A program made the translations under genes and the position numbers. A stretch of 64,000 nucleotides of DNA from Halichondria panicea. Its lineage: Eukaryota; Porifera; Demospongiae; Suberitida; Halichondriidae. How positions within the stretch are numbered: the stretch's first letter is position 1; each line of letters opens with the position of its first letter. The DNA is taken from contig NC_087379.1 in NCBI RefSeq assembly GCF_963675165.1, positions 5,163,442 to 5,227,441 of the forward strand, given 5' to 3'. The notes below the pieces were generated by a model that made no database searches, was not told where the DNA came from, and saw only the letters and a program-made list of their open reading frames with translations. This document shows, one piece after another, positions 3,001-64,000 of the stretch.

Positions 3001-6000
3001 GTGTACATTTGTACAAACTGAAGCTTATACAGGTACTAAGGACAACCACAATTCTAATTTCAGCTTTACATTGAACTGACTAATTATTGGAACTACCATT
3101 AGAACTAACCTTCACAGTAACTTGCTGTACTCTTGGGCTCTCCATACTAGCAGAGGTGAGCAGAGGACTTGGGAAGACACGGTCAGTTCGAGAATTTACC
3201 TGCTCTTGAAGGGTGTGAATTTTCTTACGGAGTATTTGTATTTCTGCCATTTTCACTTCACACTCCAAGCATGCACCAGGAATCACGGTGTTCTGTAATG
3301 ATAATGTGGTCTCTAGGGATAAGTTGCATGGTCACATGTTCAATCCTGCCCTACCACATGGTAAGGCAAGAAAAACCATGTTTACACTGTCCCTTAACCT
3401 AGCGTGTGTATAGGATAACAGAGAACCACTACAGGTACTAGCTGTAAACATGCAGTTCCCACACGGACATCATGCACCACTTGATCAGGGATGCAATTGT
3501 ATTTAGAAACAATGATTAAAGGATTCTTACTGAAGGGCAGAATCTTTTAGCAGCAGGCGATGAAAGAGAGTTGCTATCCGATTGCTGATCAATCTCTGGG
3601 TTGCTATGAGAGGTCAGCTTGGAAACGGGTTGATATTTGTGAGTGGTTTGCAAGATATTTTGCAAATTTAGAGCCGCCTGCTCGGCAAAATAACCTGGAA
3701 TAAAAAGGATAGAGGTCAAGCTATACAAATTGAATAACTCGTCAGCTATTTTTATAGTGCCTGAAATGTTACCTATTTTCCTCAAGTTTTCCACGTCCTG
3801 CCTTTGGGGCACTGTCGGAACTCCAGTTAATAGCGGACTATTCATTTGCAGTAATTGCTTGTGTGCAGGAGAAAACAGAATGGAGTGGTCCCTCTGTTCC
3901 GGTGGATGGTTTAAAATGCTGGTGGGTTGCTCAGTCGCTAGCAGCACTTGTTGAGATTCTGCAGCAAGACTCACAATGGCTGGAGCTGGTAGAGCAATCA
4001 TCTGATGCCCTGTCGTTCCTGTTCTGAATGGCTGCATTGGAGAATAGGACTTTAAGGGGTCAACTGCAGCAGGTGAAGGAACTGCATGCTGTTTTGAGGA
4101 GAGATATAAATATTCCGACTCTGGGCTCTGAATAGGTGGTGAGATGGAATCAGTGTATCTACGGGAGGTTGATGCATCTCTGCTTATTGTGGAGGTATCC
4201 TGAGAGCTGCTAGATGATGCAGCAGTCTCCATCAGAGAGGAGTTATGCTCTTGTGGATGCTGTGGTGATGGGAGAGTGACTTGGGACTCTTGGGACTTTT
4301 CTTCAGGCCATACAACGAAAAATATGCCGTGCTGATCAGCTCTATCTCTTGCAGCTTGCATAGTTTAGACCTCAGGCATTGGAGAGATTGCTACAAACCT
4401 TGACTCGACTTAGATCGACCTGCAGTATCTAGCTGCTTTATTATGCACTAGTGGGCAAAACCTAGCCTCCTTTGCGGCGCTCATTCATTGCACTCACCTA
4501 GTAGCCGCGACTATGTTTTGCACATGTGCCCTAATTTTAGCTGAGGAGTAGGAGGGTATTATTTTTGGCTCCCTGTCTTGCAGTATTCTTGAGGGAGCAA
4601 ATAAGGACAATAGGCTTTACATGCAAGTAAACATTCTAGTTACAGTGCTTTGTTTGCTAGCTACATAAAATGCTATTTTAGTGTTTAAAACGATTGGCAT
4701 GATTTATATCTTTCAGTCATTCTTCTGTTTAAAAATCACTAATAACACATTTTACACCCATTTTTTCCAAACAAAATGTTGAAGTATCTCTCTCAACACA
4801 AGTATATACATGTACAGCTCCAAGTGAGAATAGTAATTTAAACCCTTTTTTAACAAGTTGCAATTGTCTCTGGCATAATTGTTACTGCACCCCTTTTCTA
4901 CTCTATTGCATTAATGTGTATATAGGGCCGATAGGCTATAAAACCATGCATTGACCTACTCAGGTGGAGGAGATTGGGAGGAATGTTATGAGCTGGTCAT
5001 CTATGAGGCAAGGACAGAGTTGTCCTGGACTCCTGGCACACAGAAATCTCTTGTGATGATTGGGGACGCTATTCCTCACCCTCCTTCTTACAGCATGAAC
5101 ACACTCAAATTAGACTGGAAGAAAGAAGCAAAGAAACTAAAAGACGAACTTGGATGTCGAATCTACTCTGTTCAGGTAAAGGATTTATTTAATTTGCAGT
5201 ACATAAACAAAATTTAATTAGTAAATGAAAAACACTACATGCATATATGTGCACGGCAAATGTGAGCTTATAATTATTACTACTTTCATAAGCCTATGAT
5301 GTTCTTTAGGCTCTCAACAACTCTATGAGTACTTCATTCTATCGTGAGCTGGCTAGTCTGACCAATGGCTACCATCTACATCTGGACCAGTTTGCGTCCA
5401 TTGTGCAGTTCATAATGGCCATTTGCTTCAGAGAACAAGGCATGGAACAGCTCCAGGTAACCACTGCTAACACCTTCTCATTACCGTATAGCGGGTAATA
5501 TGTACGAACGACCCATTTAATTTTCGTACAGCTCAGGATAGTGACGTTGAATCTATCGTTGTTTTAATTTTCGTATGATGCATGCTCTTCAATACGAAAT
5601 AATTATATGAAAATTTCCATCATACGAAAATAACCCGCTACACGGTGGGCAACCAAATAATTAATCAGTGCTATACAAGAGTAACTTGCGTATAACACCG
5701 AGCACAGACTGGTTCAACTCTTATAATTATACTGAGAAGTTCAGCTCAGACCTATAGCTGCATGGTAACTCCTGAAATACACTTCCACAACAACTAAGAG
5801 AAGAGCCCTTTTAATTAATAAGTTGTGTTTCTCGGCTGTAGGCATATGAAGATGAAACGAGAAGTAAAGGCAGTGGAGTAAATAGATCACTCCATAAACT
5901 GTTTGACACATTGGCGGGTCGAGAAACAGCTTTCACGGGTACGGAAACATTCGTGCATGATATGTACATGCATGCATGATTGTACATACAATATAGGAGG

Positions 6001-36300: not shown

Positions 36301-39300
36301 TAGCACGTGGAACCATGGATGCGCATGTGCGGTAGGCATGCATGTGACCGGAAGCCACACCTACGACTGTGATTCGAGGTAAGGCCGCGGTTAGTGTATT
36401 TCCTCGTTAACTACATAAACTACATGTGTAGAAAAGTCACATTTCCTTGTTCTTGCAAACATTTTTACAGCCACTCTTTCGAAATCACTACGTTTGCACT
36501 TCTAAACTATACTAGCTTTTTTATAATAGAGAGAATAGCAAAGAAAGCTAGTATAGTTTAGAAGTGCAAAACACTTGTAGCTTAGGCTTGGATAATATCA
36601 TTTTATTGTATAGTAGTTTTGTGTTTCACACTGAACATGTTGAACCAGAGGTGGTACGACATGCAGGAGCAATAGTCTAGACTTGAGATTAGCTGACTCA
36701 GCATTAATAAACCTAGGCCTACACGTGAGAATAGAACGTAATTATAGTTCTCAATCAAGTCTAATTGCTCCTGCATGTCGTACCTCCTCTGGTGTTGAAC
36801 TCCACCTATAGCTACATATATCTATCAATACTCAAGAAAACTTTAACAGAATACCGACTGTAACAAAGAAAAATAATCATATACAGTGCCTTCAGCTTTG
36901 AGAGTAAATTTAACCACAGAGTGAGTAGTTGTGCTTAAATGTATCTCAAGATTGGAACATTTCTAAGAAATTGTGCTGATACCATTGTGTAGGTGAATAA
37001 ATAAGCTACAACCTTATTTGAAAATATTTCCCCAAAAGTTATTGTAGTGGGAAATCATTTTAGGTAAAAATGGGGGTGATCGAAAAATATATGTCTAACA
37101 TGAAATATCTCCGGAACCAAAGTATTTCTGGACAACTTTTTGTATTAAAAGATAGAAAATTTATTAACAATTAATGTGCAAAAACAATTAGACCACCTTA
37201 GCCGACAAATTTGCTTGAGTTCCATCGCTAAGCGAAAAGGCACCTAAAATATCCCATAATTGAGTATTAATCAGTACGTGTACTTATGTAAGCTATACGT
37301 AACCATGCATATGTTAGCTAAACTATTCAGGAATGTTGTGCCAATGTTCCATACCTTAGCCGAAAACAATTGGTCTTTTCCATCGCTAAGCGATTGTCCA
37401 CTATAGAAAAATGTTGGTGTTTTATAAACCACCACATACCCACCACCTTTGGTTGCCATGGAAATATTTTTCTGGATATGTTTTAGATAATTTGTTCACC
37501 AACACAATGGTATCATCATATTTTCTTAGAAATGTTCCAATCTCAAAATATTTACATTTATGTACTAACACGTACCAAATTGCAACACGTACCAAATTGC
37601 GTTTATTTACTCTATAGACTAAAGGCACTGTAATTATGGCCAGTTTAAATTAGTTTTAGCCTTTTTGCTGCTGGTTCAGCAGTAACGTCAAAAAATTTGT
37701 CGCTCACAGCAAATGCTAGTTCGGGAAATTTCTTCACTTCCGTCCACTCGTCAGATCTCATCACTTTCGAGCAGGTGTCTTTGTCTTTAGTGATGAAGGA
37801 CAGCACATACTCCTTGAACTTTCCATCTCCACAGTAACTGCCAGCAAAAAGGAAAAAGTGTGCTGCATTGTCAACATCGAGTTGTTTAACGATTTCATTC
37901 TCGCAAAGTGCTTTCAAACCTGGTAGTTGATACTTTTCAGCTGCAAACCACAGTTTCTCGGCCATGCTTCTAATTTTTGGTGCCTTGTCCGTATAGATAT
38001 ACGCAATCATTTCCTTCCCAACAGCAGGAGTGATGTCATCAATTGTTACTTCATTGGCTGCTGCTTCTTTCATGTCTGCTTCAAACATTATCTTGAAAAC
38101 GGGTGATCGAGCTGTAAGCAGGAACTTGCTTGCCTGTACTAGCTCCTTCTCCTTGCCAAAGTACAGCATTACATCATTCAGGTCTTTGTCGTTGTCTAGT
38201 GTAGAAGATAGCGCAGCAGAAAGAGTGGACCTTTCAGGAATTTCAACCACAGGATTTAGGCGTAAAATGCAGAACTCAATGAAAGTTTTAGCCTCTGGGG
38301 AATGATAACTCATTTTTAAAGGCTTTGTAGACTCGTAGTAACACATGTTAAGGCCAGTAGAGACACCTCTTTGTATTGTAGCCGATCCAGAAGAGAAAAC
38401 GGTTTCCTTTTTGTTTTCTCTATAATAATACTGCACATAGACAAAATAGTGTACTTCAGCAGATGCTGCTCCACTAAGCAAAGTAAGGTGTAAGACGTTG
38501 GATTTGTAGGCTAATTCCCATCGGTTGATGCCGTAGTCTGATTTGGTCTGGTTGATCTGGTTGTAGCCTAGTAGCCCACCATATACAGGCCGCTGTGGTT
38601 TCCGTTGGACGTTTGATACGCCATCGCTTGAGGAGAGAAACTTCGACTTTTCAGACTGATGACAAAATTCAGCTTTTACAAAGTTGTTAGATGTCGCCAT
38701 TTTTAAAGGTATAGCAAATCACCTGACCATGTGGAATGGCTGACCATTGTTCTATATTTAGCAATGTATGAGTAATGAGGTTTTATTGTTGTCATGTGTT
38801 GTACTGTCAGCTGACTAAAAAATTTGGTGGGCTGCACCATAGATAGTGGCTGCACTCAGAGGCAGAGGAGGTACGACAACATCATGTGCGTGAACAATGG
38901 AATTTTAATCAACAGTAAAAAGTACTGTGGGTGTGGTTTGAATAATAAAGGCTACGCCCACCATCACATCTTTGCTGCATGTTAATTGTCATTCCATTGT
39001 TCACGCGCGCACGTGATGTTGTCGTACCTCCTTTGATTGGACACGATCACGTGCAACAACTTTTTCTGAGTTGGCTCACATTCTTAACTATGATTTCAAT
39101 GTAAAGTTCTTTTGTTTTGTTAGCGTATCAGAGACTGAGAGCTGACTATTTTGGACTTCCAGGCTCTTTGGGTGTATAGCTAGCTACCCCGACATTCAAT
39201 TATATATCCCCAAATATCCTCTTCATTCTGACCAGTTATCAATGCATAGAGTGCTTACTAGATTCCTGCCAACCAGTACAATGCAAGCTATAAACAGCAC

Positions 39301-42300: not shown

Positions 42301-45300
42301 GGATGTGATGTCACAGGCAATTAGTGCTTATTAAATTCCTTGCTGCTTTATCTGAAAAGGACTATTAGTATAAGCAGGAGCAAGAGCAAGGCATCGGTGT
42401 AGTCTCGCGAGCAGACGTGGGAGAGAGGGAACGTTTGGTCACTATTGCAGCAATTCCGTGGACCCCTGCCAGAATGTTGGCAGTGCCAATCAGATTTGTC
42501 CACGTCATAGTGGGCGGTAACACCCCGTATATTTTCCTATTATAGCATAAAATGAACGTGAAAAGAAGGATTATTGACTCTAGCAAAGGCTAATTTTAGT
42601 ATTGAACCATACCTGGCTGCGGATGAACTCGGTTACAAGGAGCTCAAACCAAGCAAGAGCTAGCTAGCTGCGAATGAAAATATTTGCTACATGTGAATTT
42701 GGTTAATTAACAAATATCTTGCACGTGACTACATTCCTCAGTGCCATGGAATTGATGCAATAGTGACCAGACGTTCCCTCTAGGACAAGTCTGCTTGCGA
42801 GACTAGCATCGGTGATGCAGGAAAAGGCTAGTCCAGTGAGAAAGAGTTGCGTCCTGGACACATGTCTGCGAGTGTGACGTTTGGGAGTAGAAGGAGAACG
42901 AAGAAAAACAGTACGATAACGGGAACACACTTGAGAATAATGTACATCATGATACCATGTGTACTTAGTAGCTAGTAGCTTTGACGCATATACCGAAGCA
43001 TCACCACCCGTGGTGCTTTCATTAGTACATGTATTTTGCAAAAGGGACAATCAGTGTAGCGCAAGCGAATTCATTGGTTAGTTATATACAGCGTTTATTT
43101 TATGGATCACGACAATTGACAAAATAAAATGGCAACATAATTTATAATGGTATTTCAGCAGTGATGGTATGTCATGGTTACGATAGTTGCATCTTGTGTA
43201 TTTGGAAGTGCAAGGTGTCATTTTTCAAGTATTTTGGCTCTAGTTTTAAAATAGCGATGAACTTGTTGAGTCCGAGACCTGACAGCTGTTCCCCTTCACG
43301 AGCACGCCCACACAACCTCCCGCTCACTTTTTCGTCATACGTGTTGGACCCACACCGATGCTCCTCACCTTTGACCTGATCGAGTAGCCGAAACCAAATC
43401 ACGCCACGAAACGGCCATTTTAAATAGTTATCAAACTCTCCTTTGATGATGTACACACTCACGGCGACATGGCTCCCCTCCCCCACTCCGTGGCCATTAG
43501 CGTACACCCCCAGTCTCAGCTTGTAGCCCTGATGGTGCGTGTAGACGGGAGGAGATAGCCACTCGTCGCTGTTCTTTTTGTGATGTTGAAAATCTGTCAT
43601 TACAAGCACGGCTGACGGTATCAACGGAAAGCTGGCTCGCGCTAGAACATCTGTCACTTCCGTACGTACTTGATTGGTTAGTAAGGACAGTTCTTGTCTT
43701 AGTTTGCTGTTTTCTTCTTTGAGAGATTTTAAGTCAATTTTTATATATTTGTTTTGTGCAGATATTTCGTTGCATTGTGCTTTTATTCTGTTGGTGGCTG
43801 CTTCCTGAATTCTATGGTTTTCGCTTAGATTTTCAATTTCACTCTTCATATTTTTTTTTTCTTGTGTTATTTGCTTTATTTCGTCCTGTTGCTTGGCATG
43901 ACTGGAGGCTAATAGAGAGATGTGTGTGATGAGGTTCTCTCTCAGGTGTTCTGGCATGTTTTGTCGAGAAAGTTTCACAGCACAGCCCCCCATGTGGTGA
44001 AAGTCACAGTTGATGGTGGTCAGGGGGCACTCTTTGGCAACATGGCTGTCCAAGTTCTGACGTTGGAGAGTTGAACCACACTCGTTAGGGCAGCGGACAG
44101 GGAAGGACCCACACACAGGCCAGTGGTTGTGTATCACATTGTCTTGATGAGATGTATAGTCATTGCAATACTCGCAACTGATTGGACGTTTGCTGCAGTT
44201 GTTGCCGTGGTTTGCTAAATCTTGTCGTTTCTTTCGGTCTCCACAATGAGAACAGGTGATCTCCACAAACTGACATACATTGAGTTGTTTCTCTAATGTA
44301 GGATTCGGGTCAAGGTGCTCGTCAAGCTGCCCTAGTTCCCCCGTCCACTTACAGCCATCTCTCTTGTGGCTACAGCGAATTTTGAATGCATAAAGTGTGT
44401 TCCTGAGGCGTTTGTCTGGGAAGTCATCGAATTTCTCACTATTGCACTTAGTGCAAGGTTTGTTGTCGGCTTTAATTTGCTCGATACAAGACTGACAGTA
44501 GCTGTAGCCACAGCATGTGACCTGGTGGGGCTCTCGGATTATCTGGAGGCAAACTGGACACTCTGTCTGTAAGATTTCAGGTGGAGGCTCGAGAAACTCG
44601 CAATCAAATCCTCCCTCTTTTATTGATAGGAGCTCTGATTTCTGTTCTTCTTTCTCAGTCATCTTTTAAACTATGGATATCGTTTCTTTGTTCAGTGTTT
44701 GGCTCTCAGTTTTTTGTTATTAATATTTATGCTAGTAGCTAGTTTGGTAGAATGGAATGTCAGGCGTGCTTGTCTCAGTCTATACATGTAGTTGGAATGT
44801 GCAGCCGACCAAGTACACCTCCTGTGTTGTTGTGTACAAAACCTAACAATTAAGGAATGTGTGACCATGATGTAATGCTCTATGTACATGAATACCGAGT
44901 GTGAAATTTAATATTCGCCACGTTTAATTTTCAATTAGGAGAGAGTGTTCCTGTTACCAAGACACCCCTACAGCGTGACCACACCCACTATGACCCTACT
45001 CTACACAAGAGACACACACTCTTCAATGGTACGCAGGTCATTCAGACCCGTCTCTATGGCAACAAGAAGGTGACTGCTGTTGTCGTCAGAACAGGTGGGT
45101 GGAAAATTCTACACATGTCGGAAATGGTAGCTGCTCCCCTGCATACAATGTATATATTATTTACTTGCTTTTTGAGGACACCAAAGGCTGTACATGTAGA
45201 GTTTTGATGTTTTTTAAGCTAGGCTGATTGCTGGAAATGTTCAATTAAAAAGTTTATCCTGCATGTATTCATTTGTAGCGCTTTGATATCCCTGTCAAAT

Positions 45301-48300
45301 AATGAGTTTAAGTGCTTTACTGTGCTTTTCTGAAGCCAAGCTGATTCACTGCATACCTGTACCTTTATTGCCCAGGGTTCTCCACATCCAAGGGAGGCAT
45401 GGTGAGGTCTATCCTCTTCCCCAAACCGGTCAACCTCAAATTCTACTCTGACTCCATCAAGTTCATCATTGTCATGGCGATCATAGGTCAGTTTTTCCAG
45501 ATAATGTGTGAGTGTTGTGTGTGTTAATAGGTATGACATAAGACCGGGTGTTTTATGAAATATACAGGCACAAGCACGAGGGCGAGTTGCTGTATATTGC
45601 ATAAAACACGAGGATAATTATCATGCTATATATGTTTTATATCACGACGACCCCTTACCGAATCATGCCTCAAGGCTACACGACTGTATAATAAAAATAA
45701 TATAACACGGAAGTATGACTGTATGGCTTTTATTACACCCTTGTAACCTTGACAACGTGTAGTATAATTGTAATTATTAACCTAATGGAGGCCAGCTAGT
45801 TTTAGTAGTCGATCAGTTTGTCTGTTAGTAATTCTGAATCTGCTCACCTAGTTGCCAAATTGATGCGATTATGGCATGGATTCGTGGATTTAATTGCAAA
45901 CTAAAACTTCCTTCTCGAGTTATGTCTAAAGAGACAAAGAAAGAGCTTACATTGTATGTTTCTGGCTCGTTACTTTGACTATAATTATGACTATGCTATT
46001 GATTGGTAGGCATTGTACTATGATTGTTTGTAGTCTTTTAGGTTAGCTAGGAGAGCTACTTTTGGTTGTACTGCTGCCGTATATTCTCTTTCTCTGTGCA
46101 CACATAATCACTCGTACGTGTAGTCCTTCGATGATATAACTAGAGCACTGAAGTGCTAACCCTCGGCTGTTGACATGATTTACAGATGTATAGCAACGAG
46201 TGTTATACAATAAATGCTGGCTAAGCAGCAAGCATACTGAGATCGGAGTTTTAGTATTATATAGTACATGCATTTTAGGTTGTTTGTGACATCTGAGTTT
46301 GCTTACCTTCATTCTGTATTGTGGACTAGAATCACAGCAAAGACAGCAAAGAGGAGTCTTAGACAGGAGCCATACATTTTTCTCTAAGACTCCTCTTTGC
46401 TGTCTTTGCTGTGATTCTAGCTTTCTACTTTAGTGACCCTCCTGGTACGGGATCACTTCAGCTGTAAATACGTTGTCTACCTCGAATAAAGGCTCCCGTA
46501 TAGTTGCTTTATACTTCAGTGACCCTTTTTCCATTGCTCTTGGTACGGGATCACTTCATCTGCAAGTAGTGCCTCGACTAAAGGCCACAGTGTAGCTAGC
46601 ACAACGTAAGTTTCTTAGCTTTTGCTCGCTTTTATTCAACAAAGAGGCTTTAACATCAAAATCTGTCACTATTAAAACTAGTAACTTGTTGTGTGGATGC
46701 TATCCATGCTGTAAAGGCAGTGCTATGGCATCCAGGTGAGTAGACTCACATGTCACATACAAACGAACAAACCAGACGACTACTATACCCGTGGCCGCCC
46801 ACACATGCCTCGGGTAATTATTTATGACGTTGGCCAACCTCCTCTGACTGCACACTGCCAGAAACAGCAGCCATTGTGGCCATCACACTTCTGTTTCAGC
46901 TCCTTCTATAGAACAATGCAAGACATGCCTCGAGGCATTAAGCTAGTTTAGCTGTATTGTCCCTGTTAGTTGCTGCTAACCAACTTCCGTTCTCATGCAT
47001 GTACATACTATTACATGTGCTTGTACTATGCTTTTCACATTAATTGATATCCCCCTAAAATTTGCACTCAGGTACTAGTTGTATGATTATTGTAGAGCTG
47101 TGAAACCGAAATTAAATTTTAGGCATCAATTAATGTTTTCACAGTTTAGTACTAGCTACTAATATATTCTGTGACATACAAATCGAAATAGTTCTGTAAC
47201 CATTCACTCATGATAGTAAGTTCATCGTCCGAAAGAGCAAACTCTTGTCGCAACTGAGCAGACTGACTCACTGTCAGCGTCCAGGTTCCCTGCCTCGATT
47301 TTAGCCCTCCTTTCAGCACGTGTGCATGCAACATTAACAACTCTGCAAACTTTCTCGGCTACCCTGCGGAACCATCTCCATTGAGCCTTAGCCATGCTGC
47401 CAGTAGACCTAGCCATCTCTATCTCCTGGAGAAAGGCTTGCATCTCGTCATCGTCGTCTTCATCTTCCGACTCCATGTTGGGCATGGCGTGGATCATGCT
47501 GACTGCTACAGCCAGGAAAGTGGCCAGGAGAATGAGCTTGTTCATTTTCATTGTTAATCCGGTTGAGTTGTTTGTCTTGATTATCGGAGAACTTGATGAA
47601 GTATGATACAGCCGCTCGGGTTAGTTTTCTTTTTATACAACCTCTCAGAGTGTATTGTGTAATAGATTGTGTATACATGTATATACTTGTATTGCTTGTT
47701 AGGTGTGGATTCCTCACCATCATGAACTTGTATTGTACAGTCACTATCCCCTACCATGTTCAAGTTGCCGTGTATTAGGGGTTTTCTGTCATGGCGATGA
47801 TGCTATTATATACACTGTGTATAGTATTGTACAATCACTATCAGTCTGCCCTAAGGCCCCCAACTTTTAAGTATTTGCAAGACAAGACAGGAAATACATA
47901 CCACAAGTATTTTAATTGTTTCATAAGGATGACATCACAATTTTAATGAAATTCATAATTATATAATGAGTTCATAATGATGACAATGAGTTCATAATGA
48001 TGACACCCAACTCTGCCAGCCTAAATTTACTTGCCAGTCCAAGTTGTAGTTTAGGTATTTCCTGGGTTAAGATACATACATGTATTTAAAACGGCATGAT
48101 GGTCTCAGTTTCCAGAATCCCTGGCCCTGTGGACCTCATAACTTACTTTACATAAATGTCGCCCAGTGGTGTCCAGTCAACCGTATGTAGCAGAGCTCGA
48201 TTGTAGTGAAGGGTGATTTTTTCTGAATTTCCAAAGCTCTCATAACACAGACCATTTACTGAACTAGAACTTGTTAGGAGACAAATTAGTTCAATATAGA

Positions 48301-51300
48301 ATGTATTGACTCAAAGTTTGTGTAACTGCTTTGCAAACACCATTCATTTGTATGGCATTTACCTTGAATATGTTGTTATTCAGATCCTTCTTAATTGTTC
48401 AACCAATTTTTAGCTTGCTACGTCGATGGTGAACAGCTTGCTCAAAAATTCAAACTTTCCGCAATCATTTAACACAACTTTATGCTAGTTTGACCCAAAT
48501 TCATAATTTAAAGTGTTTATCGTATGTTAAATTGTCTTCTTATTACATATTTCAACTTAAAAGCCTTTATTTTTATCAGAAACAAAGAAAAACTGTTCTC
48601 ATTAATATATTCATGAGGCAACTTGTAGCACTATCCTGTCTTACAACATTTGGGGTCTTAGGGCAGACTGTATCCTCTACCATGTTTAAGTTGCCGTGTA
48701 TTGTACAGTCACTATCCCCTACCATGTGTAAGTTGCCGTGTATTTGGGGTTTTCTGTCATGTCGATGATTCTCTATTATATATACTGCACTGTGTGTACT
48801 CTAGTGGTATTATAAATAGTGAAGCACTTTCTTGTATAGTTGGTGCATAATTATACCGTATAACAGTAAAATGTGGCGAATAACCGTTTGAACGAATTAG
48901 CGTGTTGAATTTAACGTCTCACTGGCGTTACGTCCACCACATAGCTTTAATATTAGCTATTTTAAGTTTGGCGATCCTCGGTAATATTCGGAAAATATAA
49001 TGTAAAATAAATGGCCTTGCATTTACACGTAGATAAGTGTTTACATTTAGGATGTGTGTACAGTGTGCTTACTCAGCACTCACTCTTAGACTAAACTTTG
49101 ATACACGTCCCCAACACGTACGAAGAGCCATTACTCCACCCCCTCATACCCCTTGCGTACATGTAGGTGCTGCAGGGTTTGTGTATACACCATCATCATC
49201 TGCCAAGTGCATCACTACCAGATCAGTGAAACAATGCTCCAAGCAATTGATATAATCACGACAGCGGTGCCCCCCGCCCTGCCAGCTGTACTCACCGTGG
49301 GAACAGTGTACGCTCTCAATCGACTTAGGAAGCACAATATATTCTACATAAGTCCACAGAGGTGTTTTCATGGCGGGGCTCCAGTCTAGTGTCTCTGCTG
49401 TGATCCTAGCCCCAGGCAGTTTACATGTATACATGTCAGGCGCACGAGGAATATATGTACCATATAGCTGTGTGTGTGTGTGTGTGTCTATTCCAACTGT
49501 AACGTACTGTAACGGTTGCAATGCGACGAGGCTTCTAGCCACATCCTCCTGGATTTTGATTATATATAGGGTGATTTTCGTGAGGTAAAATATTTTACTT
49601 ACAGTTAAGGCTGTTGCTGCCACTAAAATACCGGTGTATTATAAGTTTCCTGCTTTTCCCTTGAAAAGCAAAATTTGCACTGCATGTGCGAAAATTTCTC
49701 GCTATAATATTATACGGTATGGCTGTTATAGAGCTCCAGGGTGTCATACAGGGGGGGGGGAAAGGGGGGATATCCCCCCCCTAGCTCCAATTTCCCCCCC
49801 CTTTCATAATTGACTGAGTGTCCATAGCTGGGTATTGAAATAACAGTTGACCTTTTTTTAGCAACATTTTCTGGTTACTTTTCTCATTTCCCCCCTCTAC
49901 TTCAAAATCCTGTATGACACCCTGAGCTCTGAAGCTGAAATTAGTCATTGCTTTCACAGTTTAATAGCTAAGTACTAATAATCATTCTGTGACATGGTAA
50001 ATTATTTTTATATGCTTGACTCATATGATATCTCATGCATTGATGGTTACAAATTATAGTTCATCAGCCAATATTGACAAAACGGCAAACAGTTTTCGCA
50101 GCTGTGCATATTGCCTCACTGTCAGCAATCTGATTCTCTGTCTCGATATTAGCCTTTATTTCAGTTCTTGTGCACGGAATAGCTGGAACAACTTTGCAAA
50201 CCTTCTTGACCACATTTGCAACTTGACGAATTATTCGACGTACTCCACGAAACCGAACTCTCCATTGAGTCTTAGCCATGCTGCCAGCAGACCTAGCAAT
50301 CTCTATCTCCTGGAGAAGGGCTTGGATCTCGTCATCGTTGTTTTCATCGTTTGACTCCATGTTGGGCATGGCGTGGATCACGCTGACTGCTACAGCCAGG
50401 AAGGTGGCGAGGAGAATGAGCTTGTTCATCTTAATTGTTGCGTTGTTTGTCTTGATGATCAATAGAGAAGTTGATGATGAAGTATGATACAGCCGCTCAG
50501 TCAGCTTTCTTTTATACAACCTCTCAAAGTTTATTGTGCATAGGTTGCGTATATTTTATTGCTTGTTAGGTGTGGATTCCTCACCATCATGAACTTGTAT
50601 TGTACAGTCACTATCCCCTACCATGTTTAAGTTGCCGTATATTTGGGGTTTCCTGTCATGTTGATGATGCTATTATATACTTGTATACTATAGTGGTATT
50701 ACATTATAGTGAAGCACCTTCGTGCATAATTATACCGTATAACAGTAAAATGTGACAAATAACCATTTAAACGAATTGGCGTGTTGTCAGTCAGCTTTCT
50801 TTTTTTATACAACCTCTCAAAGTTTATTGTGTATAGGTTGCGTATAATATTTTATTGCTTGTTAGGTGTGGATTCCTCACCATCATGAACTTGTATTGTA
50901 CAGTCACTATCCCCTACCATGTTTAAGTTATCGTATATTGTACAAATTAGTTCAATATAGAATGTATTGACTCAAAGTTTGTGTAACTGCTTTGCAAACA
51001 CCATTCATTTGTATGGCATTAACCTTGAATATGTTGTTATTCAGATCCTTCTTAATTGTTCAACCAATTTGTAGCTTGCTACGTCGATGGTGAACAGCTT
51101 GCTCAAAATTTCAAACTTTCCGCAATCATTTAACACAACTTAATGCTAGTTTGACTCAAATTCATAATTTAAAGTGTTTATCGTATGTTAAATTGTCTTC
51201 TTATTACATATTTCAACTTAGATAGCTCTAAAAACCTTGATTTTTTATCAGAAACAAAGAAAAACTGTTCTCATTAATATATTCATGAGGCAACTTGTAG

Positions 51301-54300
51301 CCTGTCTTACAACATTTGGGGTCTTAGGGCAGACTGTATCCTCTACCATGTTTAAGTTACCGTGTATTGTACAGTCACTATCCCCTACCATGTGTAAGTT
51401 GCCGTATATTTGGGGTTTTCTGTCATGTCGATGATTCTCTATTATATATACTGCACTGTGTGTACTCTAGTGGTATTATAAATAGTGAAGCACTTTCTTG
51501 TATAGTTGGTGCATAATTATACCGTATAACAGTAAAATGTGGCGAATAACCGTTTGAACGAATTAGCGTGTTGAATTTAACGTCTCACTGGCGTTACGTC
51601 CACCGCATAGCTTTAATATTGGCTGTTTTAAGTTTGGTGATCCTCGGTAATATTCGGCAAATAATGTAAAATAAACGGCCTTGCATTTACACGTAGATAA
51701 GTGTTTACATTTAGGATGTGTGTACAGTGTGCTTACTCAGCACTCACTCTTAGACTAAACTTTGATATACGTCCCCAACACGTACGAAGAGCCATTACCC
51801 CACCCCCTCATACCCCTTGCGTACATGTAGGTGCTGCAGGGTTTGTGTACACCATCATCATCTGCCAAGTGCATCACTACCAGATCAGTGAAACAATGCT
51901 CCGAGCAATTGATATAATCACGACAGCGGTGCCCCCCGCCCTGCCAGCTGCCCTCACCGTGGGAACAGTGTACGCTCTCAATCGACTCAAAAAGCACAAG
52001 ATATTTTGCATCAGTCCACAGAGGTGAAGCCATAGATGGTGTAAGATTTTTGTCCGTAGGTAATTTGTTGCCATTGGAATTGTATATACATCTCTTTGAT
52101 TTGCAAATGTTGTTTGACTTGTATTTTGCTACTGTCATCTTCCTCTTGTTGTTTGTATCCTCCACCAGAGTGAACATGTGTGGCAAGATCAAGCTGGTGT
52201 GCTTTGATAAGACAGGCACTCTCACTGAGGACAGTCTGGACATGGCTGGAGTGAGGCCTGCTCACCACGGAATGTGAGTACCTATAGTTGGACGTTCACA
52301 GTGCTACACAATGTGTGTACCTAGCTGTTTATAGTGGTCACACTTGCAGTGGCCGTAATATAGAGGTGGCGTGGTAACACAGGTTGAAACACATGCTTTG
52401 GAGATTTAAACCTGGCCGCATTATAGAGGGTGACCTTCATTATAGGGTGACCACAATAGACACTGTTGCACTGTACATGTACTCTGATCATTGAGCAAGG
52501 AACTGTGTGTACGGTGAAGCCTAGCTATTGTGTACATTGTACACATACATGTATAGCTGTCATTGACATCATGCATGTATAATTATTGCAATAATCTACT
52601 AAGGGCAGGATCTCCAGCCGGGGTAATACTCAATGACCTACAGTACATATGTACATGCACATTATAGTTAAAGATTTAGTTAAAGACTTTGTAAAAATAT
52701 CAATATTTGATTTTGTTGTTGTCACCTACATGCATGTAGGTTCAGTTGTCTGATTGAGGACCCCTGTACCCTGACCCCTGGTCCGCTCCTCCATGCCATG
52801 GCAACATGCCACTCCCTCTCTATGATCAGAGGACAGCTCTCAGGTGACCCTATTGACCTCAGGATGTTCGGGGCCATTGGATGGGTGAGTTTCAATCAAT
52901 TTTGTAGGGGTTGTTTGATCATGCGCACATGCTTTGATCATTGTAAATACAGTAGCAAAGTCAGTCCTCGATTAACTGTAAGTGAAGTTCGGGTTTATTT
53001 GTATGCTCTGTAATCAGACAAAGGGTCAGTACATGCCATCACAGCATGCTACGATTTGCCTTTAATTATTGTCTTGAAATTTTTTAATCTTGTATAAAAT
53101 GACTCTACTCGGTTACATGTACGTACGGTGTGCCTCACTTTATGAATGTCTTCATTTTAATTAGCTGTTTTTTGTGTCCTCTTACGATACGTGTGTTTTT
53201 GTCAGGTGTTGGAGGAACCTGAAGAGAGTGGTACCACGATATCCCCCACAGTGGTCCACCCCCTGACCACACCCACTGGGGACACCACCGTAGAGCTGGG
53301 TATCATGAAACAATTCACATTCTCCTCGGAACTACAGGTGAGTGTACTACACTGTAGCTTTGGGTGCAAAAAAATTAATGATGTGTAATAATAGTAACGT
53401 GTATCATACGTACGTACGTACACGGTATATTCCTAGTTAACAGTTGCAGTTAACCTCCTCCCCCACACACAGAGGATGAGTGTGCTGGTTCGCTCGCTCC
53501 CCTCAACCACACCCTCTCGGTTCCAAGCCTACGTGAAGGGAGCCCCAGAAACCATTAAAAAACTCTGCAAGCCAAACTCAAGTAAACCATTTTCTACAAT
53601 TATTCTGTGCTTATAGTGTGCACCAGTACAGGGAAATCTTTTGCAATCGCCCTACAGTGTATATTATGACGTAGCTAGGTTCATAGTTCCCTATAAGGGT
53701 GATCGTTATACATGTACTATACACAATAGCCTCAGGTTTCACTGTATTATGCTTTGTACAACTGTATGTACACAGTACTGTATGTATGAGGATGGTATTC
53801 TCACACAGTTCCAAACAACTTCTACGAGGTGCTGGGATCGCTGACTCAGCAAGGGTTCCGAGTGCTGGCTGTAGCTCACAAGACCATCAACATGCCATGG
53901 CACAAAGTCGATAAGGTCAAAAGGTCAGTGATTCAACACCACCCCCCAACCACGACTACAGTCTGACTGCAGTGCACATGTCATGTACAGATGTATGTGG
54001 TTGTTTTGTTGTTACGACTTGTCCCCCCCTCCCACACACATACACACACATACACACACACACAGAGACAAAGTGGAGAGTGAACTGTATTTTGTCGGAC
54101 TCATTGTGCTACAGAACAAACTGAAGGCAGTAACCACGCCCACCATCCTGTCACTTAAGAACGCTGACATTCGCACAGTCATGATCACTGGTAAGTTGTA
54201 CTCCATTCTACTATAAAACAATTTGTACATATAGTTTACATGACTGTACATATACATGTACATGTAGAGGTTAGGTTAAGAGGTTAAGCACAATCGTTGG

Positions 54301-57300
54301 ATCCAAACAAGTGGCTACCGTATTACTAGAATATTTTGCGGGTGAAAAACCTTTGTGAATGAGCAGAACATTTGACCCTTTGCGATCTAACTATTGCGTT
54401 CTAGCAAGGATCGTGTGTATAGTAATAATTTAGGTTTTGCGGATTTTATTGTTGCGAATTGATCAACCATCGCAAAGTTTCAGTTTGATGCTCGCAAAAC
54501 ATTCTAGTAATACGGTATGTGTGGCCATAACTTACATGTAGTCTAGAGTGTCCAATTAAAATGTAAATGGTGCATTCTGTAGTTCTTAAGAAGCCTATGA
54601 GAACATGTAACATTTTCGACTTGTTTTGTCATATCCTCTACACTGTACCTCACTCAGGTGACAATATTCTGACTGCGGTCTCGGTGGCCAAGGAGTGTCA
54701 GATGGTACCGTCAGGGAGTCGGGTTGTCATGGTGAAGGCCTCTTCAAGCGTGTGTGGTCCTCCCACCCTCTCTTATCATCTGCTGGAAGATCAGTCTGAC
54801 CTTTTGCACCTTCTGGAGTCTAACAATGGTGAGTATATAATAGTATAGGAAGAGAAATTCATGCATGAATACCGTATATGCTTGATCAGGAGCCGCGGCT
54901 ACTAAATGTTTCATTTTGCTGGAAGAGGAGGCTACAATTCGAGAGAAGCCACTGTTCAAGAGCGACGTTTATTAGCTCCAGCTAATTCAACAACCTTTAG
55001 TTTGTCATCAAAGGTTCTTTTCACCTGCATAAACTTGAACTCTGCCATGAGAAAGTCTTTATGAAGCACTAACAAGCTGCTACCTGTAGCTAGCTGCTAG
55101 TACTAATAATTTTTTTGACTGCCACGTGCAAAATGCTAGAGTCAAACTTCACTGAGGCTACTATTTGAGAACGGCTACTAAATGTTTCATTTTGCTAGCA
55201 AGGGAGGCTACTATTTAAGTGCGGCCTCTGATCGAGCATACGGTACATGGGAATATAGTACATACAATTGATCCATTATGTCCTGCACATACTAATTTCA
55301 ACTGTATTCCACTTTCACCCCAGCAGAGTTTGAGCCCACAATATCAGACAAACCCAACCCTCTCTCATTTGACTCCACCCACTGCCTCGCCTACCACCTA
55401 GCCGTGGACGGGAAAACATTCGCTCTCATTAAAGAGCACTTCACGGACTCCGTCTATCAGAGGGTGAGAAATGAACATGCTTGTGCAATATGTAACTACA
55501 ATGTACATGTAATAGTGTATGCTAAGAAAAGATTGTTGTGATTTTTTTTAGTGTGTTTATAATTTGTTGTTTCTTGCAGCTTCTTGTGAAGGGAACAGTG
55601 TTTGCTCGTATGTCACCCACACAAAAAGCAGAACTCGTCAATTCACTGATGGAGATCGGGTAAGACGGAAAGAATGTTCCTCCATTACCAAATACTGTGT
55701 ATCTTCCATTAGGTACGGTGTGTGCATGTGTGGAGATGGTGCCAACGACTGTAGGGTAGGTATTACATGTATGTGGTATCATTCATTGTCATGTGACCAT
55801 CATCCACATGACCATACAGGCGCTGAAGGCGGCCCACGCTGGAATTTCACTCTCGGAAACAGAAGCAAGTGTAGCATCTCCTTTCACCTCTAAAATCCCG
55901 GACATAACTTGTGTGCCCAAACTAATCAGGTAAGTTACGCCCCTCTGTACACACCCTCACAGTGAGGGACAAGCCGCCCACACACACACACACACACTCT
56001 TACATGAAATCTACCCTCACAGTAAAGGATGTGCATGCACACAGACACACACACCCTCACAGTTAGGGACGAGCTGCCCACACACACCCTTACACGAAAC
56101 CCACCCTCATGTAGTGAGAAACGAGCTGCCCACGCACACACCCTCACAGTAAGGGATGAGCTGCCCATGCACACACACACACACACACCTTCACAGGGAA
56201 GGACGAGCTGCCCTAGTGACCTCCTTCAGTGTGTTCAAGTACATGGCACTCTACTCCTTTGCTGAATTCATCTCTGCAGCCATTCTATACGCAGTAAGTT
56301 CGTTAACATGTGTATATATTCTTCTACTCATTCTTTGTGTCCTCTAGTACGAGTCCAATCTGGGTGATCAGCAGTACCTCTACATTGACCTCATCCTCGC
56401 ACTCTGTGTCTCCTTCACTAGTAAGATTAAACCTGTTTGTTCTCGTCTCTCATCTACACATACATGTACATGTATCTTTGTGGTGTGGTACTGAATTTCT
56501 CTCATAATTATTGTCTACATGAATAAAGTAGCTTCTAAAGATGTCTGCAAATGAAGAAATACTGACCCCACCCTCCTCCCCCCTTCCAGTGGGTTTCACA
56601 GCATCGTACCCTCAGCTGGTCAAGAAACGACCTCTAGGCACGTTGGCAGGGATACACGTCCTCCTCTCAATCGTGATACAGACCATTCTCCTTATAGTCT
56701 TCCAAGTAGGTGCTCTCTGCTACCTCTCAACACGATCATGGTAAGGCCAGCAATATACTACTCAATTTGAGTGTTTTAACAGTAGCTCATGATACTTTAT
56801 GGATATTATAAAATAACAATTAACGTACATGATAGCTAATAGAACCTTAACGTGCCACAGAATTCAACTTGCGTGCTGCATTAATTTTGTCACTTTTTAT
56901 AATTATTGTCTGGTCAGCATATTTTTTAACCCTCTAGGTATGTGCCACTGATACCAGACCCTGAATCTGATAATATCAATTCCCAAGAGAACTCTGTGAT
57001 CTTCCAGTTTGCTAACTTTCAGTACCTCGGCCTCAGTGTGGCACTGTCTACAGGTGCTCCGTTCAGACGACCACTCTTCACAAACTGTGAGAGCTGTAAA
57101 CCTAACCCTTAACCCCTTACTTTCACCGACCATTAGTTTCTAGACTATAATAACTGACGTATATTTACAACCTTAGCATACGTACATGTACGTGTCCCTA
57201 TCCACATTCGCTCTGTACACACAGCATAATGCATGATAATGAGAAGGGGATCATTGTGTCCCTGAGCTCTTTGTGTAGTGTATTTCAGCTGAAAACTTGA

Positions 57301-58835: not shown

Positions 58836-59711
58836 TCAAAGAATAGACAGACACAGTAGTGTGTTCTGAGTCAGTCCAGCTTGGCCCAGTGTCAGTGACC
58901 AGTCTCTGAACACCACCTTGGGCACTGTACTGGTGGCCAACTCCACCTCAGACGGAGAAACTGCACCCACTCCTTTAGGCAGGGACGTCATAGCGAAGGC
59001 TAATAGGGAGCTGAGGGTGTGTATGGAATAGTCGAATCGTCTCTGAGCTCTTGATCCGTCGGGTAGTCTGACACACAGTGTCACACAGTCTGGGTCGTGT
59101 ACTGAGGGCTCTGGTGGAACTGTTAGCGGTTGCTCTCTCGGTATAATAGTTGGTTTGTGCGTATGCGGGAGATGATCGTGTGACCATGTCATGTGACTCG
59201 AGGGGTGGTTCGGTGATCGTACGTCAATGGCTGAGTCTGTCTCCACCAGTGCATCTCTGGAGTCGATGGACGGTAGGGGCTTGAAACGCTGGAAAGGATA
59301 AAACATGAGATATGTGTGTGTGAGTTTGGGCTACAGTCTATAATATTACGTCTACTCGTTCTGTAAACCTCCAACGTCACAAGTCTTTTAACTATTTGAC
59401 ATTCTAAGAGTACACAGAAATGTTGCAAGAGTTCCAGACCCTTCTCTTTCAATTTTTCCTCCGCTGAGAAAAGGTCTCTTGAGAGGTTTCTGGCTCCCAA
59501 GACATAGTGAATGGGGGTACAGGTAGGACCAGGACCAGGAAACATACCATTGCATACCATTGCATACCTTGTATGAAAAGGAAGCATCTATCAAGTCTCT
59601 GCTCTTTCTAGATGGTGGGGTAGGTGGTGGTAGAGCAGATGAGGCAATGTCACTCTTATCAGAAGCTCTCTTGAATCGCCTTCCTCTGTGGTGAACTACT
59701 TTGTTGTCCAT
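58836..59711 (-). CDS. UBX-domain protein, UBXN10-like
   Basis: Two exons, 59711 (or 59819) to 59568 and 59288-58836, phase 0; 198 residues from the Met at 59711, 234 from 59819. I prefer 59711 because the longer start leaves only 21 bp to the DR1 start. The N-terminal half is basic and proline-rich. It contains K-P-L-P-S-I-D-S-R, resembling the L-P-S-I-N-R-K segment of UBXN10. The last 90 residues are a UBX-type ubiquitin-like fold: C-V-R-L-P-D-G-S-R-A-Q-R-R-F, a helix (L-S-S-L-L-A-F-A), then V-F-R-D-W-S-L-T-L-G-Q-A-G-L. UBX domains bind p97/VCP, and UBXN10 acts in cilium assembly. The UBX call is fairly sure, the UBXN10 subtype less so. It converges with ATP13A (240 bp between stops). Confidence 0.6.
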
Positions 59712-59840
59712 CTTCCAGTTTCCATAGAGAAGTGAGAACGGCTGAATCAGCAGACTACCCAGGGTGTGTTTTATTAAGAAAACCCATGTGGAGAGATCCG
59801 AAGAAAAATTGTCTACCATTGCATTATCTGAAGAGCTCCA
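59712..59840. promoter_or_regulatory. Bidirectional promoter between UBXN10-like gene and DR1
   Basis: Only 129 bp separate the two divergent start codons (21 bp if the longer UBX reading is used). No TATA box is apparent, which fits a shared housekeeping-type promoter. Confidence 0.5.
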
Positions 59841-62800
59841 ATGGCTGATGGAGGATCAGGACTGCAAGATGATGAACTCTATCTGCCCAGGAGTGAGTCA
59901 TCCACGTCAGCACCCTTGAGAGGCATAGTAGCCATCGTGTTACCCTTTCCTTGTAGATATATAATATTCAATCCTCTAATGCACCTGGCTCATCACAGTC
60001 TCTTTTATTATAATATGCAGCTGTGGTGAACAAGCTCATCAAGGAGATTGTGCCCAACATTAGAGTCTCTACTGACGCTAGAGACCTCCTCCTCAACTGC
60101 TGCACAGGTCAGCATCTCTTACGAATTGTAACTACCCAGTTACCCTATATACAGTCTATATAAGGTGTCACTAAAAAATAGCACGTTTGCGCGAGACTAT
60201 ACAAGCCTTCATGTATGTACTGTACACATGTGCTATGTAGGTGAAACGTCCACTGTCGCATGTAGTATGAGGGTCGCTTTATCTATACGGTGGAGTGCTT
60301 GCTTATGTAATGTAGTCTATGTATAGGTAGGCAGAGTCTCCTCAATAGGCCATTGACAAAAAAAGATCTATCATTCCTAGGCTGGGTACCCTACCAGTGG
60401 CTATAGGCTACGTATAAGTTATGTCCTCCTGTTCATTCAGAGTTCCAGCTGATTCTGAGTTCCTTGTACACTTGAGGAATGTTTGTGTAGTAGAGTTGCA
60501 TACATGGTAGAGTTCATCTACCTACATGTATGCACTCTTCTTCTTGTGTAGAGTTGATCCCCTATATATGCACTCTTCTCGTGTAGCGTTGATCCCCTAT
60601 ATATGCACTCTTCTCGTGTAGAGTTGATCCACCTATATATGTACTCTCCTCGTGTAGAGTTGATCCCCTATATATGTACTCTTCTTCTTGTGTAGAGTTG
60701 ATCCACCTATATATGCACTCTTCTCATGTAGAGTTGATCTGCCTATATATGCACTCTTCTCGTGAGAGTTGATCCCCTATATATATGCACTCTTCTCGTG
60801 TAGAGTTGATCCCCTATATATGCACTCTTCTCGTGTAGCGTTGATCCCCTATATATGCACTCTTCTCGTGTAGAGTTGATCCACCTATATATGTACTCTT
60901 CTCGTGTAGAGTTGATCCCCTATATATGTACTCTTCTTCTTGTGTAGAGTTGATCCACCTATATATGCACTCTTCTTGTGTAGAGTTGATCTGCCTATAT
61001 ATGCACTCTTCTCGTGAGAGTTGATCCCCTATATATATGCACTCTTCTCGTGTAGAGTTGATCCCCTATATATGCACTCTTCTCGTGTAGCGTTGATCCC
61101 CTATATGTGCACTCTTCTTGTGTAGAGTTGATCCCCTATATATGTACTCTTCTCGTGTAGAGTTGATCCCCTATATATGTACTCTTCTCGTGTAGAGTTG
61201 ATCCCCTATATATGTACTCTTCTCGTGTAGAGTTGATCCCCTATATATGCACTCTTCTCGTGTAGAGTTGATCCGCCTATATATGCACTCTTCTCGTGAG
61301 AGTTGATCCCCTATATATATGCACTCTTCTCGTGTAGAGTTGATCCCCTATATATGCACTCTTCTTGTGTAGAGTTGATCACCTATATATGCACTCTTCT
61401 TGTGTAGAGTTGATCCCCTATATATATGCACTCTTCTCGTGTAGAGTTGATCCCCTATATATGTACTCTTCTCGTGTAGAGTTGATCCCCTATATATGTA
61501 CGTACTCTTCTTGTGTAGAGTTGATCACCTATATATGCACTCTTCTCGTGTAGAGTTGATCCCCTATATATGTACTCTTCTCGTGTAGAGTTGATCCCCT
61601 ATACATGTATATGTACTCTTCTCGTGTAGAGTTGATCCCCTATATGTGCACTCTTCTCGTGTAGAGTTGATCCCCTATATATGCACTCTTCTTGTGTAGA
61701 GTTGATCCCCTATATGTGCACTCTTCTCGTGTAGAGTTGATCCCCTATATATGCACTCTTCTTGTGTAGAGTTGATCCCCTATATGTGCACTCTTCTCGT
61801 GTAGAGTTGATCCCCTATATATGTACTCTTCTCGTGTAGAGTTGATCCCCTATATGTGCACTCTTCTCGTGTAGAGTTGATCCCCTATATATGCACTCTT
61901 CTTGTGTAGAGTTGATCCCCTATATGTGCACTCTTCTCGTGTAGAGTTGATCCCCTATATATGTACTCTTCTCGTGTAGAGTTAATCCCCTATATAATTA
62001 TGCACTCTTCTCGTGTAGAGTTGATCCACCTATATAATTATGCACTCTTCTCGTGTAGAGTTGATCCCCTATATATGTACTCTTCTTGTGTAGAGTTGAT
62101 CCCCTATATATGCACTTTTCTCGTGTAGAGTTGATCCCCTATATATGTACTCTTCTTGTGTAGAGTTGATCCCCTATATATGCACTCTTCTCGTGTAGCG
62201 TTGATCCCCTATATATGCACTCTTCTTGTGTAGAGTTGATCCCCTATATATGCACTCTTCTCGTGTAGAGTTGATCCCCTATATATGCACTCTTCTCGTG
62301 TAGAGTTGATCCCCTATATATGTACTCTTTTCGTGTAGAGTTGATCCCCTATATATGCACTCTTCTCGTGTAGAGTTGATCCCCTATATATGTACTCTTC
62401 TCGTGTAGAGTTGATCCCCTATATATGCACTCTTCTTGTGTAGAGTTGATCACCTATATATGCACTCTTCTTGTGTAGAGTTGATCCCCTATATATATGC
62501 ACTCTTCTCGTGTAGAGTTGATCCCCTATATATGTACTCTTCTCGTGTAGAGTTGATCCCCTATATATGTACGTACTCTTCTTGTGTAGAGTTGATCACC
62601 TATATATGCACTCTTCTTGTGTAGAGTTAATCCCCTATATATGCACTCTTCTCGTGTAGAGTTAATCCCCTATATATGTACTCTTCTCGTGTAGAGTTGA
62701 TCCCCTATATATGTACTCTTCTCGTGTAGAGTTGATCCCCTATATGTGCACTCTTCTCGTGTAGAGTTGATCCCCTATATATGCACTCTTCTTGTGTAGA

Positions 62801-63859
62801 GTTGATCCCCTATATGTGCACTCTTCTCGTGTAGAGTTGATCCCCTATATATGCACTCTTCTTGTGTAGAGTTGATCCCCTATATGTGCACTCTTCTCGT
62901 GTAGAGTTGATCCCCTATATATGTACTCTTCTCGTGTAGAGTTAATCCCCTATATAATTATGCACTCTTCTTGTGTAGAGTTGATCCACCTATATAATTA
63001 TGCACTCTTCTCGTGTAGAGTTGATCCCCTATATATGTACTCTTCTTGTGTAGAGTTGATCCCCTATATATGCACTTTTCTCGTGTAGAGTTGATCCCCT
63101 ATATATGTACTCTTCTTGTGTAGAGTTGATCCCCTATATATGCACTCTTCTCGTGTAGCGTTGATCCCCTATATATGCACTCTTCTTGTGTAGAGTTGAT
63201 CCCCTATATATGCACTCTTCTCGTGTAGAGTTGATCCCCTATATATGTACTCTTCTCGTGTAGAGTTGATCCCCTATATATGTACTCTTCTCGTGTAGAG
63301 TTGATCCCCTATATATGTACTCTTCTCGTGTAGAGTTGATCCACCTATATATGCACTCTTCTCGTGTAGAGTTGATCCCCTATATATGTACTCTTCTTCT
63401 TGTGTAGAGTTGATCCACCTATATATGCACTCTTCTCGTGTAGAGTTGATCACCTATATATATGTACTCTTCTCGTGTAGAGTTGATCCACCTATATAAT
63501 TATGCACTCTTCTCGTGTAGAGTTGATCCACCTATATATGTACTCTTCTCGTGTAGAATTGATCCCCTATATATGTCGTGTAGAGTTGATCCACCTATAT
63601 ATGCACTCTTCTTCTTGTGTAGAGTTGATCCCCTATATATGTACTCTTCTCTCATGTAGAGTTGATCCGCCTATATACACTTTTCTCTCATGTAGAGTTC
63701 ATCCACCTGATAGCCAGTGAGGCCAGTGACATCTCTGAGAAACAAGCCAAGAAGGTCATCTCCCCTGAGCACGTTGTGGAGGCTCTGAGCACGTTGGGCT
63801 TTACTGAGTATGTGGTGGATGTCAAGGCCGTGCACAAAGAGTACAAAGAACAGGCCTCA
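59841..63859 (+). CDS. DR1: DR1 / NC2-beta transcription repressor, 5' part
   Basis: Three exons are in view: 59841-59892, 60021-60107 and 63696-63859, giving the first 101 residues; the gene continues beyond the window. The protein opens with an acidic, Gly-rich tail and L-Y-L-P-R. The histone fold follows: V-V-N-K-L-I-K-E-I-V-P-N-I-R-V-S-x-D-A-R-D-L-L-x-N-C-C-T, then E-F-I-H-L-I-A-S-E-A, K-K-V-I-S-P-E-H-V-V-E-A-L and L-G-F-T-E-Y-V. This matches the family closely. NC2-beta pairs with NC2-alpha (DRAP1) through this fold and binds TBP on DNA, blocking TFIIA/TFIIB entry. Intron 2 is 3.6 kb and almost wholly a minisatellite whose unit resembles the exon 3 acceptor. Confidence 0.95.
60540..63690 (+). 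repeat. About 3.1-kb minisatellite of a 35-bp unit in DR1 intron 2
   Basis: The consensus unit is GTGTAGAGTTGATCCCCTAT followed by ATATGCACTCTTCTC, about 35 bp, with roughly 85-90 units by length. Variants: GCACTC/GTACTC, CTCGTG/CTTGTG/CTTCTTGTG, CCCC/CCACC/CTGCC, ATATAT/ATATGT. It has higher-order structure: 61365-62000 recurs nearly unchanged at 62436-63000 (offset 1071 bp), and 60590-60790 recurs about 248 bp later. The unit carries the bases found at the real exon 3 junction. Confidence 0.95.
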
Positions 63860-64000
63860 GTAAGTGCAGTACACATAGTAATTATTAAGCATGGATTAGG
63901 TTTATAGCAAGAGTGCATGTACTCTTGGTTGTAGGTACTGTAATTTTAGTGCATCCATGTACACGCATGCAGCTACATATACGTATCTCAAACTCAAAAG
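63860..64000 (+). other. Start of DR1 intron 3
   Basis: Begins at donor GTAAGT after residue Ser101 and runs to the window end. Nothing else seen. Confidence 0.7.

Follow-up and report, generated by a model that had tools for sequence, protein, structure and literature searches.

A minisatellite of decoy acceptors that appears to derive from the DR1 exon 3 splice junction in the sponge Halichondria panicea

The window analysed is a 64,000-nt stretch of one contig (C3) of the 131-Mb Halichondria panicea assembly, and it includes sequence of DR1 and of a neighbouring ATP13A3-like gene. Seven DR1 exons were predicted by eye and, when joined, encoded a 297-aa protein identical over its full length to the NCBI entry 'protein Dr1-like isoform X1 [Halichondria panicea]'; a second NCBI isoform, X2, lacks exon 5. 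The top PDB match (1jfi) and the Pfam family CBFD_NFYB_HMF identified the product as NC2 beta. The median length of the 32 introns in DR1 and the ATP13A3-like gene was 326.5 nt; intron 2 of DR1, which is among them, measured 3588 nt. Features are listed in Table 1. Two introns of the ATP13A3-like gene also carry ORFs on the minus strand. Intronless ORFs with BTB and TRAF/MATH domains (Pfam) at 37648-38718 and 43181-44665 lie antisense within a 9.9-kb intron, and similar short ORFs in another intron (47225-47620 and 50067-50555) showed by eye a signal-peptide-like stretch and had no Pfam match.

Table 1. Coordinates of the DR1 features and of the other junction arrays (window positions unless a locus is named; a slash marks a splice boundary)
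Feature	Position	Strand	Details	Source
DR1 exon 1, coding part from ATG	59841..59892	+		exon join compared with NCBI isoform X1
DR1 exon 2	60021..60107	+	donor CAG/GTCAGC at 60108	
DR1 intron 2	60108..63695	+	about 430 nt not array	
5' edge copy	60508..60523	+	TAGAGTTCATCTACCT; retains exon-like TTCATC	
35-bp junction minisatellite ('mirage')	60539..63704	+		Tandem Repeats Finder
Duplicated block, 309 bp	60546..61106	+	lag 252, 3 mismatches (60546-60854 and 60798-61106, overlapping)	
Duplicated block, 663 bp	61720..63342	+	lag 960, 8 mismatches (61720-62382 and 62680-63342)	
Last unit ahead of exon 3	63660..63695	+	sole stop-free decoy, in frame; best-scoring decoy	
DR1 exon 3	63696..63859	+	first bases AGTTCATCCACCTG (EFIHL); donor TCA/GTAAGT	
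DR1 intron 5 junction array	L009 2802-3125		125 bp x 2.6, exon at 3112	
ATP13A3-like intron array	55930..56196	+	267 nt, 5 degenerate decoys before the true exon	copy test
POLA2 array, last modelled intron	L033 4907-5016	minus	40 bp x 2.8	Tandem Repeats Finder

A preliminary description of this DNA had reported an intron minisatellite resembling an amplified 3' splice junction of DR1, with 85-90 decoy acceptors. Tandem Repeats Finder (TRF) and the junction match described below confirmed this observation. For the intron 2 array TRF gave a period of 35, 88.6 copies and 90% matches, and the final partial copy extended 9 bp into exon 3. When the array was split at the junction core, 89 units preceded the true acceptor at 63696 and all 89 contained an AG, in line with the number proposed. 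The units ended in TGTAG (85/89), GTGAG (3/89) or GGTAG (1/89), fell into 34 distinct variants and were exactly 35 bp long in 60 of 89 cases. Besides a pyrimidine tract and the AG, they carry as many as 13 recognisable exon 3 bases, and the repeat unit therefore covers both intronic and exonic bases of its own gene; splice dinucleotides are kept in many units, where they may be usable as cryptic sites.

A recursive splice site consists of an AG with a donor GT directly after it (AG/GT). An array of recursive (zero-exon) splice sites was rejected as a description of this intron, the units reading AG/AGTT, AG/CGTT or AG/AATT and none of them AG/GT. In a test for structured RNA, 281 nt of the array folded with z = -1.49, 23 of 200 shuffles being equally or more stable, and Rfam gave no family at gathering score on positions 59000-64000.

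The true DR1 junction reads CTTTTCTCTCATGTAG/AGTTCATCCACCT and the 36-bp form of the unit reads CTCTTCTCTCATGTAG/AGTTGATCCACCT. Alignment of the unit to the junction, one of the checks suggested in the preliminary description, gave agreement at 27 of 29 bases (2 mismatches) for this form. The closest match to the junction in 539,002 background bases, a total over both strands made up of the window minus the array, 20 10-kb loci and locus L009, had 9 mismatches. The 5' edge copy differed from the true junction at 1 of 16 positions, compared with a background minimum of 3. A 23-base core was then searched at up to 3 mismatches, a cut-off beyond which more diverged relatives may exist, in the whole assembly, giving at least 84 matches, every one inside the DR1 array, and none on the other strand or for the reversed control (all counts being lower bounds). 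The preliminary description had named two observations that would tell against its reading; one of them, an unrelated origin of the unit at some other place in the genome, was not found in the assembly at this cut-off.

The copied exon 3 bases encode EFIHL, which is present in 77 of 95 DR1 homologues and occurs in human NC2 beta (1jfi) too. Since these bases encode a motif kept in so many homologues, the exon is the older sequence and the junction the founder. TTCATC is found at the 5' edge copy and at the true junction and TTGATC in interior units, the pattern that an early base change ahead of the amplification would leave. An origin of the DR1 array at the intron end is therefore well supported by the constrained coding part of the exon, by TTCATC at both edges and by the finding of the core nowhere else, and is the reading that these sequences favour. 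An unrelated minisatellite that spread as far as the exon and resembles it fortuitously is a most improbable source of the array. Arrays unconnected with a junction do exist in this genome, such as the one of 52 copies of 40 bp in an apparent intron (L010 1371-3469), but the background contained no equally good match, the exon bases in the match belong to conserved coding sequence, and at up to 3 mismatches no further copy of the core was found in the assembly.

The interior of the array contained long duplicated blocks. In addition to the two in Table 1, blocks of 236 bp (lag 1100) and 224 bp (lag 1071) were repeated with 0 mismatches each, indicating that the array expanded from within at least in part, and probably in large part, by duplication of blocks of a few hundred bases. 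The claim that the array grew from the intron end accordingly needs to be divided: the junction match and the conserved exon bases place its origin there, whereas the internal block duplications are not what simple growth at that end would give. Relative to the commonest unit, the first unit had 10 edits and the last 8, which puts both among the most diverged, and a unit carrying a deletion near the 3' end (63557) had 9, compared with 0-3 in most others; the boundaries of the cluster thus escape homogenisation. Inflation or collapse of the copy number by misassembly would be another source of such an array. Long arrays are hard to assemble, and the available text of PMC3087553 reports an aberrant assembly in the amphioxus BflGb6 draft. 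However, the 34 unit variants of DR1 are arranged as ordered duplications of blocks, with differences scattered through them, and the remaining junction arrays are short, which makes an artefact very unlikely.

The consequences of splicing to each decoy were determined by translation. The preliminary description had expected most decoys to add stops, and reading from 88 of the 89 did run into a stop before exon 3 ended, the exception being the nearest decoy (63660), use of which would add 12 residues. From 57 of the 89 the product was an 11-residue tail followed by a stop, the commonest tail being ELIPYICTLLV. In the standard unit, 35 bases and the 1 base left from exon 2 make 12 codons, so that the TAG of the next acceptor becomes an in-frame stop.

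The strength of the decoys was evaluated against 70 introns of H. panicea: 6 of DR1, 26 of the ATP13A3-like gene (P0096), 13 of POLA2 (P0216) and 25 of an ATP13A paralogue on contig C5 (P0097), those of the last three genes being solved by exact spliced matching of NCBI proteins. With a matrix trained on 66 acceptors, array introns excluded, the true DR1 site scored 10.98 and the decoys had a median of 6.68, the best of them (63660) reaching 10.69, so the nearest decoy nearly equals the true site; the medians were 6.74 for real acceptors and -0.35 for 1756 other intronic AGs. With a smaller matrix of 30 sites the true site scored 10.33, while the decoys reached 8.40 at best and had a median of 3.57, compared with a median of 6.41 for 32 real sites, each left out of the matrix when it was scored. 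Despite the differing decoy medians, both matrices ranked the true acceptor first of 90. The decoys scored above the 10th percentile of real acceptors in 85 of 89 cases (66-site matrix), suggesting that they are credible acceptors, and for this reason their use is possible. Pyrimidine content alone did not set the true site (12 of 15 positions, longest run 10) apart from the 89 decoys, 6 of which also had 12 pyrimidines and 5 a run of 11. TTGAT, which is branch-like by consensus, was present in 84 of the 89 units, and in 60 units its A lay 29 nt before the next AG. On the other hand, the best of 302 GTs in the array scored 4.02 as a donor, against a median of 8.15 and a minimum of 3.32 for real donors, and cryptic exons within the array look unlikely on these scores.

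The two NCBI models found for DR1 (X1 and X2) both join exon 2 to the last acceptor, 63696, which is probably the main one in RNA. This bears on the proposal, made in the preliminary description, that the decoys tune DR1 output. Under such tuning the acceptors would compete, the share of transcripts spliced to decoys would gain a stop and be degraded, and the length of the array would set the output. The 85 decoys above the 10th percentile, the branch-like TTGAT in 84 units with its A at 29 nt in 60, the stops reached from 88 decoys and an NCBI POLA2 sequence that finishes at a decoy (see below) are all consistent with this proposal. It was not supported by the two DR1 models, in which the last and best-scoring of 90 acceptors is used, nor by the similar arrays found in functionally unrelated genes. 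Regulation of DR1 by decoys may be possible, but tuning by array length is improbable as the explanation of this array.

The recurrence of such copies was analyzed by searching each junction (-4 to +14) in its own intron and in introns resampled from the dinucleotide chain of that intron (200-300 times, or 40 times for introns longer than 2500 nt). A copy better than in every resampled intron was found for 5 of 70 acceptors, comprising 4 short-unit junction arrays and 1 whole-exon duplication, while copies of the donor junction were found in 0 of the 70 introns of DR1, the ATP13A3-like gene, POLA2 and the C5 paralogue at p < 0.02. After removal of DR1 intron 2 and POLA2, introns that had been picked for their arrays, short-unit copies remained in 2 of 68 acceptors; the one in DR1 intron 5 had been noticed earlier through TRF and the ATP13A3-like one was found by the copy test itself. 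In the latter, 15 of 18 junction bases were copied, a level reached by 0 of 200 resampled introns; one decoy reads CTCACAG/TTAGGGACGAGCTGCCC and the true exon, at 56197, begins GGAAGGACGAGCTGCCC. TRF did not report this array (55930-56196). The C5 paralogue had junction copies in 0 of 25 introns, and its matching intron, of 80 nt and without a copy, lies between exons equal in length (37 and 33 residues) to those on either side of the ATP13A3-like array. Since the matching C5 intron has no copies, the ATP13A3-like array is probably a later gain in one paralogue. The whole-exon duplication was in the intron at 45487-51830, at about 49.17 kb. The duplicated ATP13A3-like exon lies at 49167-49364 and 51831-52024, and the 49-kb copy carries a frame-shifting 2-base insertion.

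In POLA2, an array in the last modelled intron coincides with the end of the NCBI protein. The sequence (P0216, 552 aa, isoform X2, representative of a 2-member cluster) ends in ...QQKCYYPLLPLPDYPPQLLPPTALT, which is the reading from the first of 3 acceptors (L033 5004) to a stop in the next copy; it therefore lacks the C-terminal part of the protein and ends at the first decoy, the second decoy being at 4964. The start of the true exon was placed at 4924 from the reading frame, from the YYPL shared with human POLA2 and from LLPVKPDILILPSDLKPFIK downstream, the exon alone giving a weak PDB match (E = 0.12) and the YYPL segment being not significant by itself. Because the NCBI sequence lacks the true exon, the copy test was run with the acceptor of the middle copy, which, as read from the sequence, is identical to the true junction over 18 bases. 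Either this decoy may be used by the spliceosome or the gene model may have been misled by it, and the ending of P0216 goes against the view that decoys are ignored.

A TRF survey (period of at least 18) yielded 50 arrays in 26 records covering 313,901 bp, the one at L009 15-219 being a part of the DR1 array counted a second time. Of these, 41 were in 24 10-kb loci (L010-L033) taken at round rather than random positions of contigs C1, C2 and C4-C9. Pfam was run on 20 ORFs picked by eye from 176, and among the 41 arrays, a minority of which were assessed, 1 (POLA2) was shown to copy exon bases. A 45-bp x 5.4 array on the minus strand (L031 2949-3199) has CACAG/TGA acceptors directly before an AFG2A-like AAA exon (PDB match); its acceptor end is repeated (p = 0.000, -14 to +4) and the exon-side copy test failed (p = 0.14), so it was not counted. 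The array at L032 2509-2577 looks similar to the junction arrays, as does L021 2652-3042, which has about 5 units with TACTAAC, a C-tract and CACAG/CAGGGGAG/GTCTGG, acceptor-like and donor-like signals flanking 8 bases. At L010 824-3596 the 40-bp array interrupts a 53-bp array in the apparent intron and ends about 25-30 nt before a possible acceptor, with no sign of derivation from a junction. A protein tyrosine phosphatase exon contained an array (L020 6974-7308; 123 bp x 2.7, TQAPLHSTVGD repeated) that stays open in one reading frame, an insert that would be unusual at such a place.

In the other arrays that were scored, too, the exon-proximal site was the best or tied, with scores of 6.45 in DR1 intron 5 (next 6.17), 9.49 in the ATP13A3-like intron (next 9.37), 10.25 in POLA2 (tied with 1 of 2 decoys) and 9.39 in the AFG2A-like gene (next 9.08). 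Some margins are small and the ranking is suggestive only; as the copies of an array share ancestry, ranking within it is not independent evidence.

Clusters of tandem repeats that span an intron-exon boundary have been described in amphioxus as 'mirages', according to the available text of PMC3087553 and PMC3902484, where the study of Canestro et al. 2002 is cited. In those portions regular splicing is said to be undisturbed, the ends of clusters to escape homogenisation and lengths to vary. The DR1 array is structurally a mirage: as in the amphioxus clusters described there, its units span the boundary, many carry an AG, the authentic junction is the copy adjoining the exon and the cluster ends escape homogenisation. 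The two differ in host, a sponge rather than a lancelet, and in unit number, with about 89 DR1 decoys compared with 6 and 3 units in two haplotypes of the amphioxus globin BflGb6 (available text of PMC3087553). Furthermore, the H. panicea copies involve acceptors only (donors 0/70), whereas both boundary types are involved in amphioxus as far as the available text goes. No mirage outside lancelets was recognised in searches of open-licence literature, judged from titles and abstract openings.

Two other systems share part of this pattern. In potato RdRp, the accessible part of PMC4974935 describes intron gain through tandem duplication across an intron-exon boundary, in which, as in DR1, the branch site, pyrimidine tract and AG are taken along; the potato duplicate became a new intron, whereas the DR1 copies remain in the old one and lengthen it. 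In Caenorhabditis elegans the minisatellite CeRep25B lies near multiple alternative splicing regions and, like the DR1 array, is intronic with a proposed link to splicing, but unlike the DR1 unit it is not described as coming from a host splice junction in the accessible part of PMC4039745.

Taken together, these results favour, with a probability of roughly 0.8, the view that the array is a mirage minisatellite which arose from a duplicated DR1 acceptor junction and was amplified internally, the last acceptor being used and the decoys being mostly passive. A tandem duplication reaching from the end of intron 2 across roughly the first 13 exon 3 bases would have placed a second acceptor within the intron. 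Slippage or unequal exchange would then have multiplied the interior units until there were about 89, with part of this growth proceeding by blocks of a few hundred bases. The array would be tolerated provided that the copy adjoining the exon was held intact by coding and splicing constraint and used, as its best fit to the sponge acceptor matrix and its position nearest the exon 3 donor lead us to expect. Occasional use of a decoy would lead to a stop (88/89) and probably to decay of the transcript, such misuse presumably being rare. A neutral account is the simplest: duplications crossing an acceptor are tolerated because the exon-side copy still works.

More tentatively, and with somewhat less than even odds, introns of H. 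panicea, perhaps of sponges widely, may repeatedly lengthen from the 3' end by duplication of their own acceptor junctions, giving many multi-acceptor arrays of differing ages in essential genes, some of which, as in POLA2, may already divert splicing to truncating decoys. The finding carries the mirage phenomenon described in lancelets to a sponge and suggests that junction duplication is a recurrent route to longer introns. Such arrays may also be a trap for gene prediction, since a model may end at a decoy copy. With about 90 near-identical acceptors that differ by a few bases and precede one exon, DR1 intron 2 is a natural competition experiment on the choice of 3' splice site.
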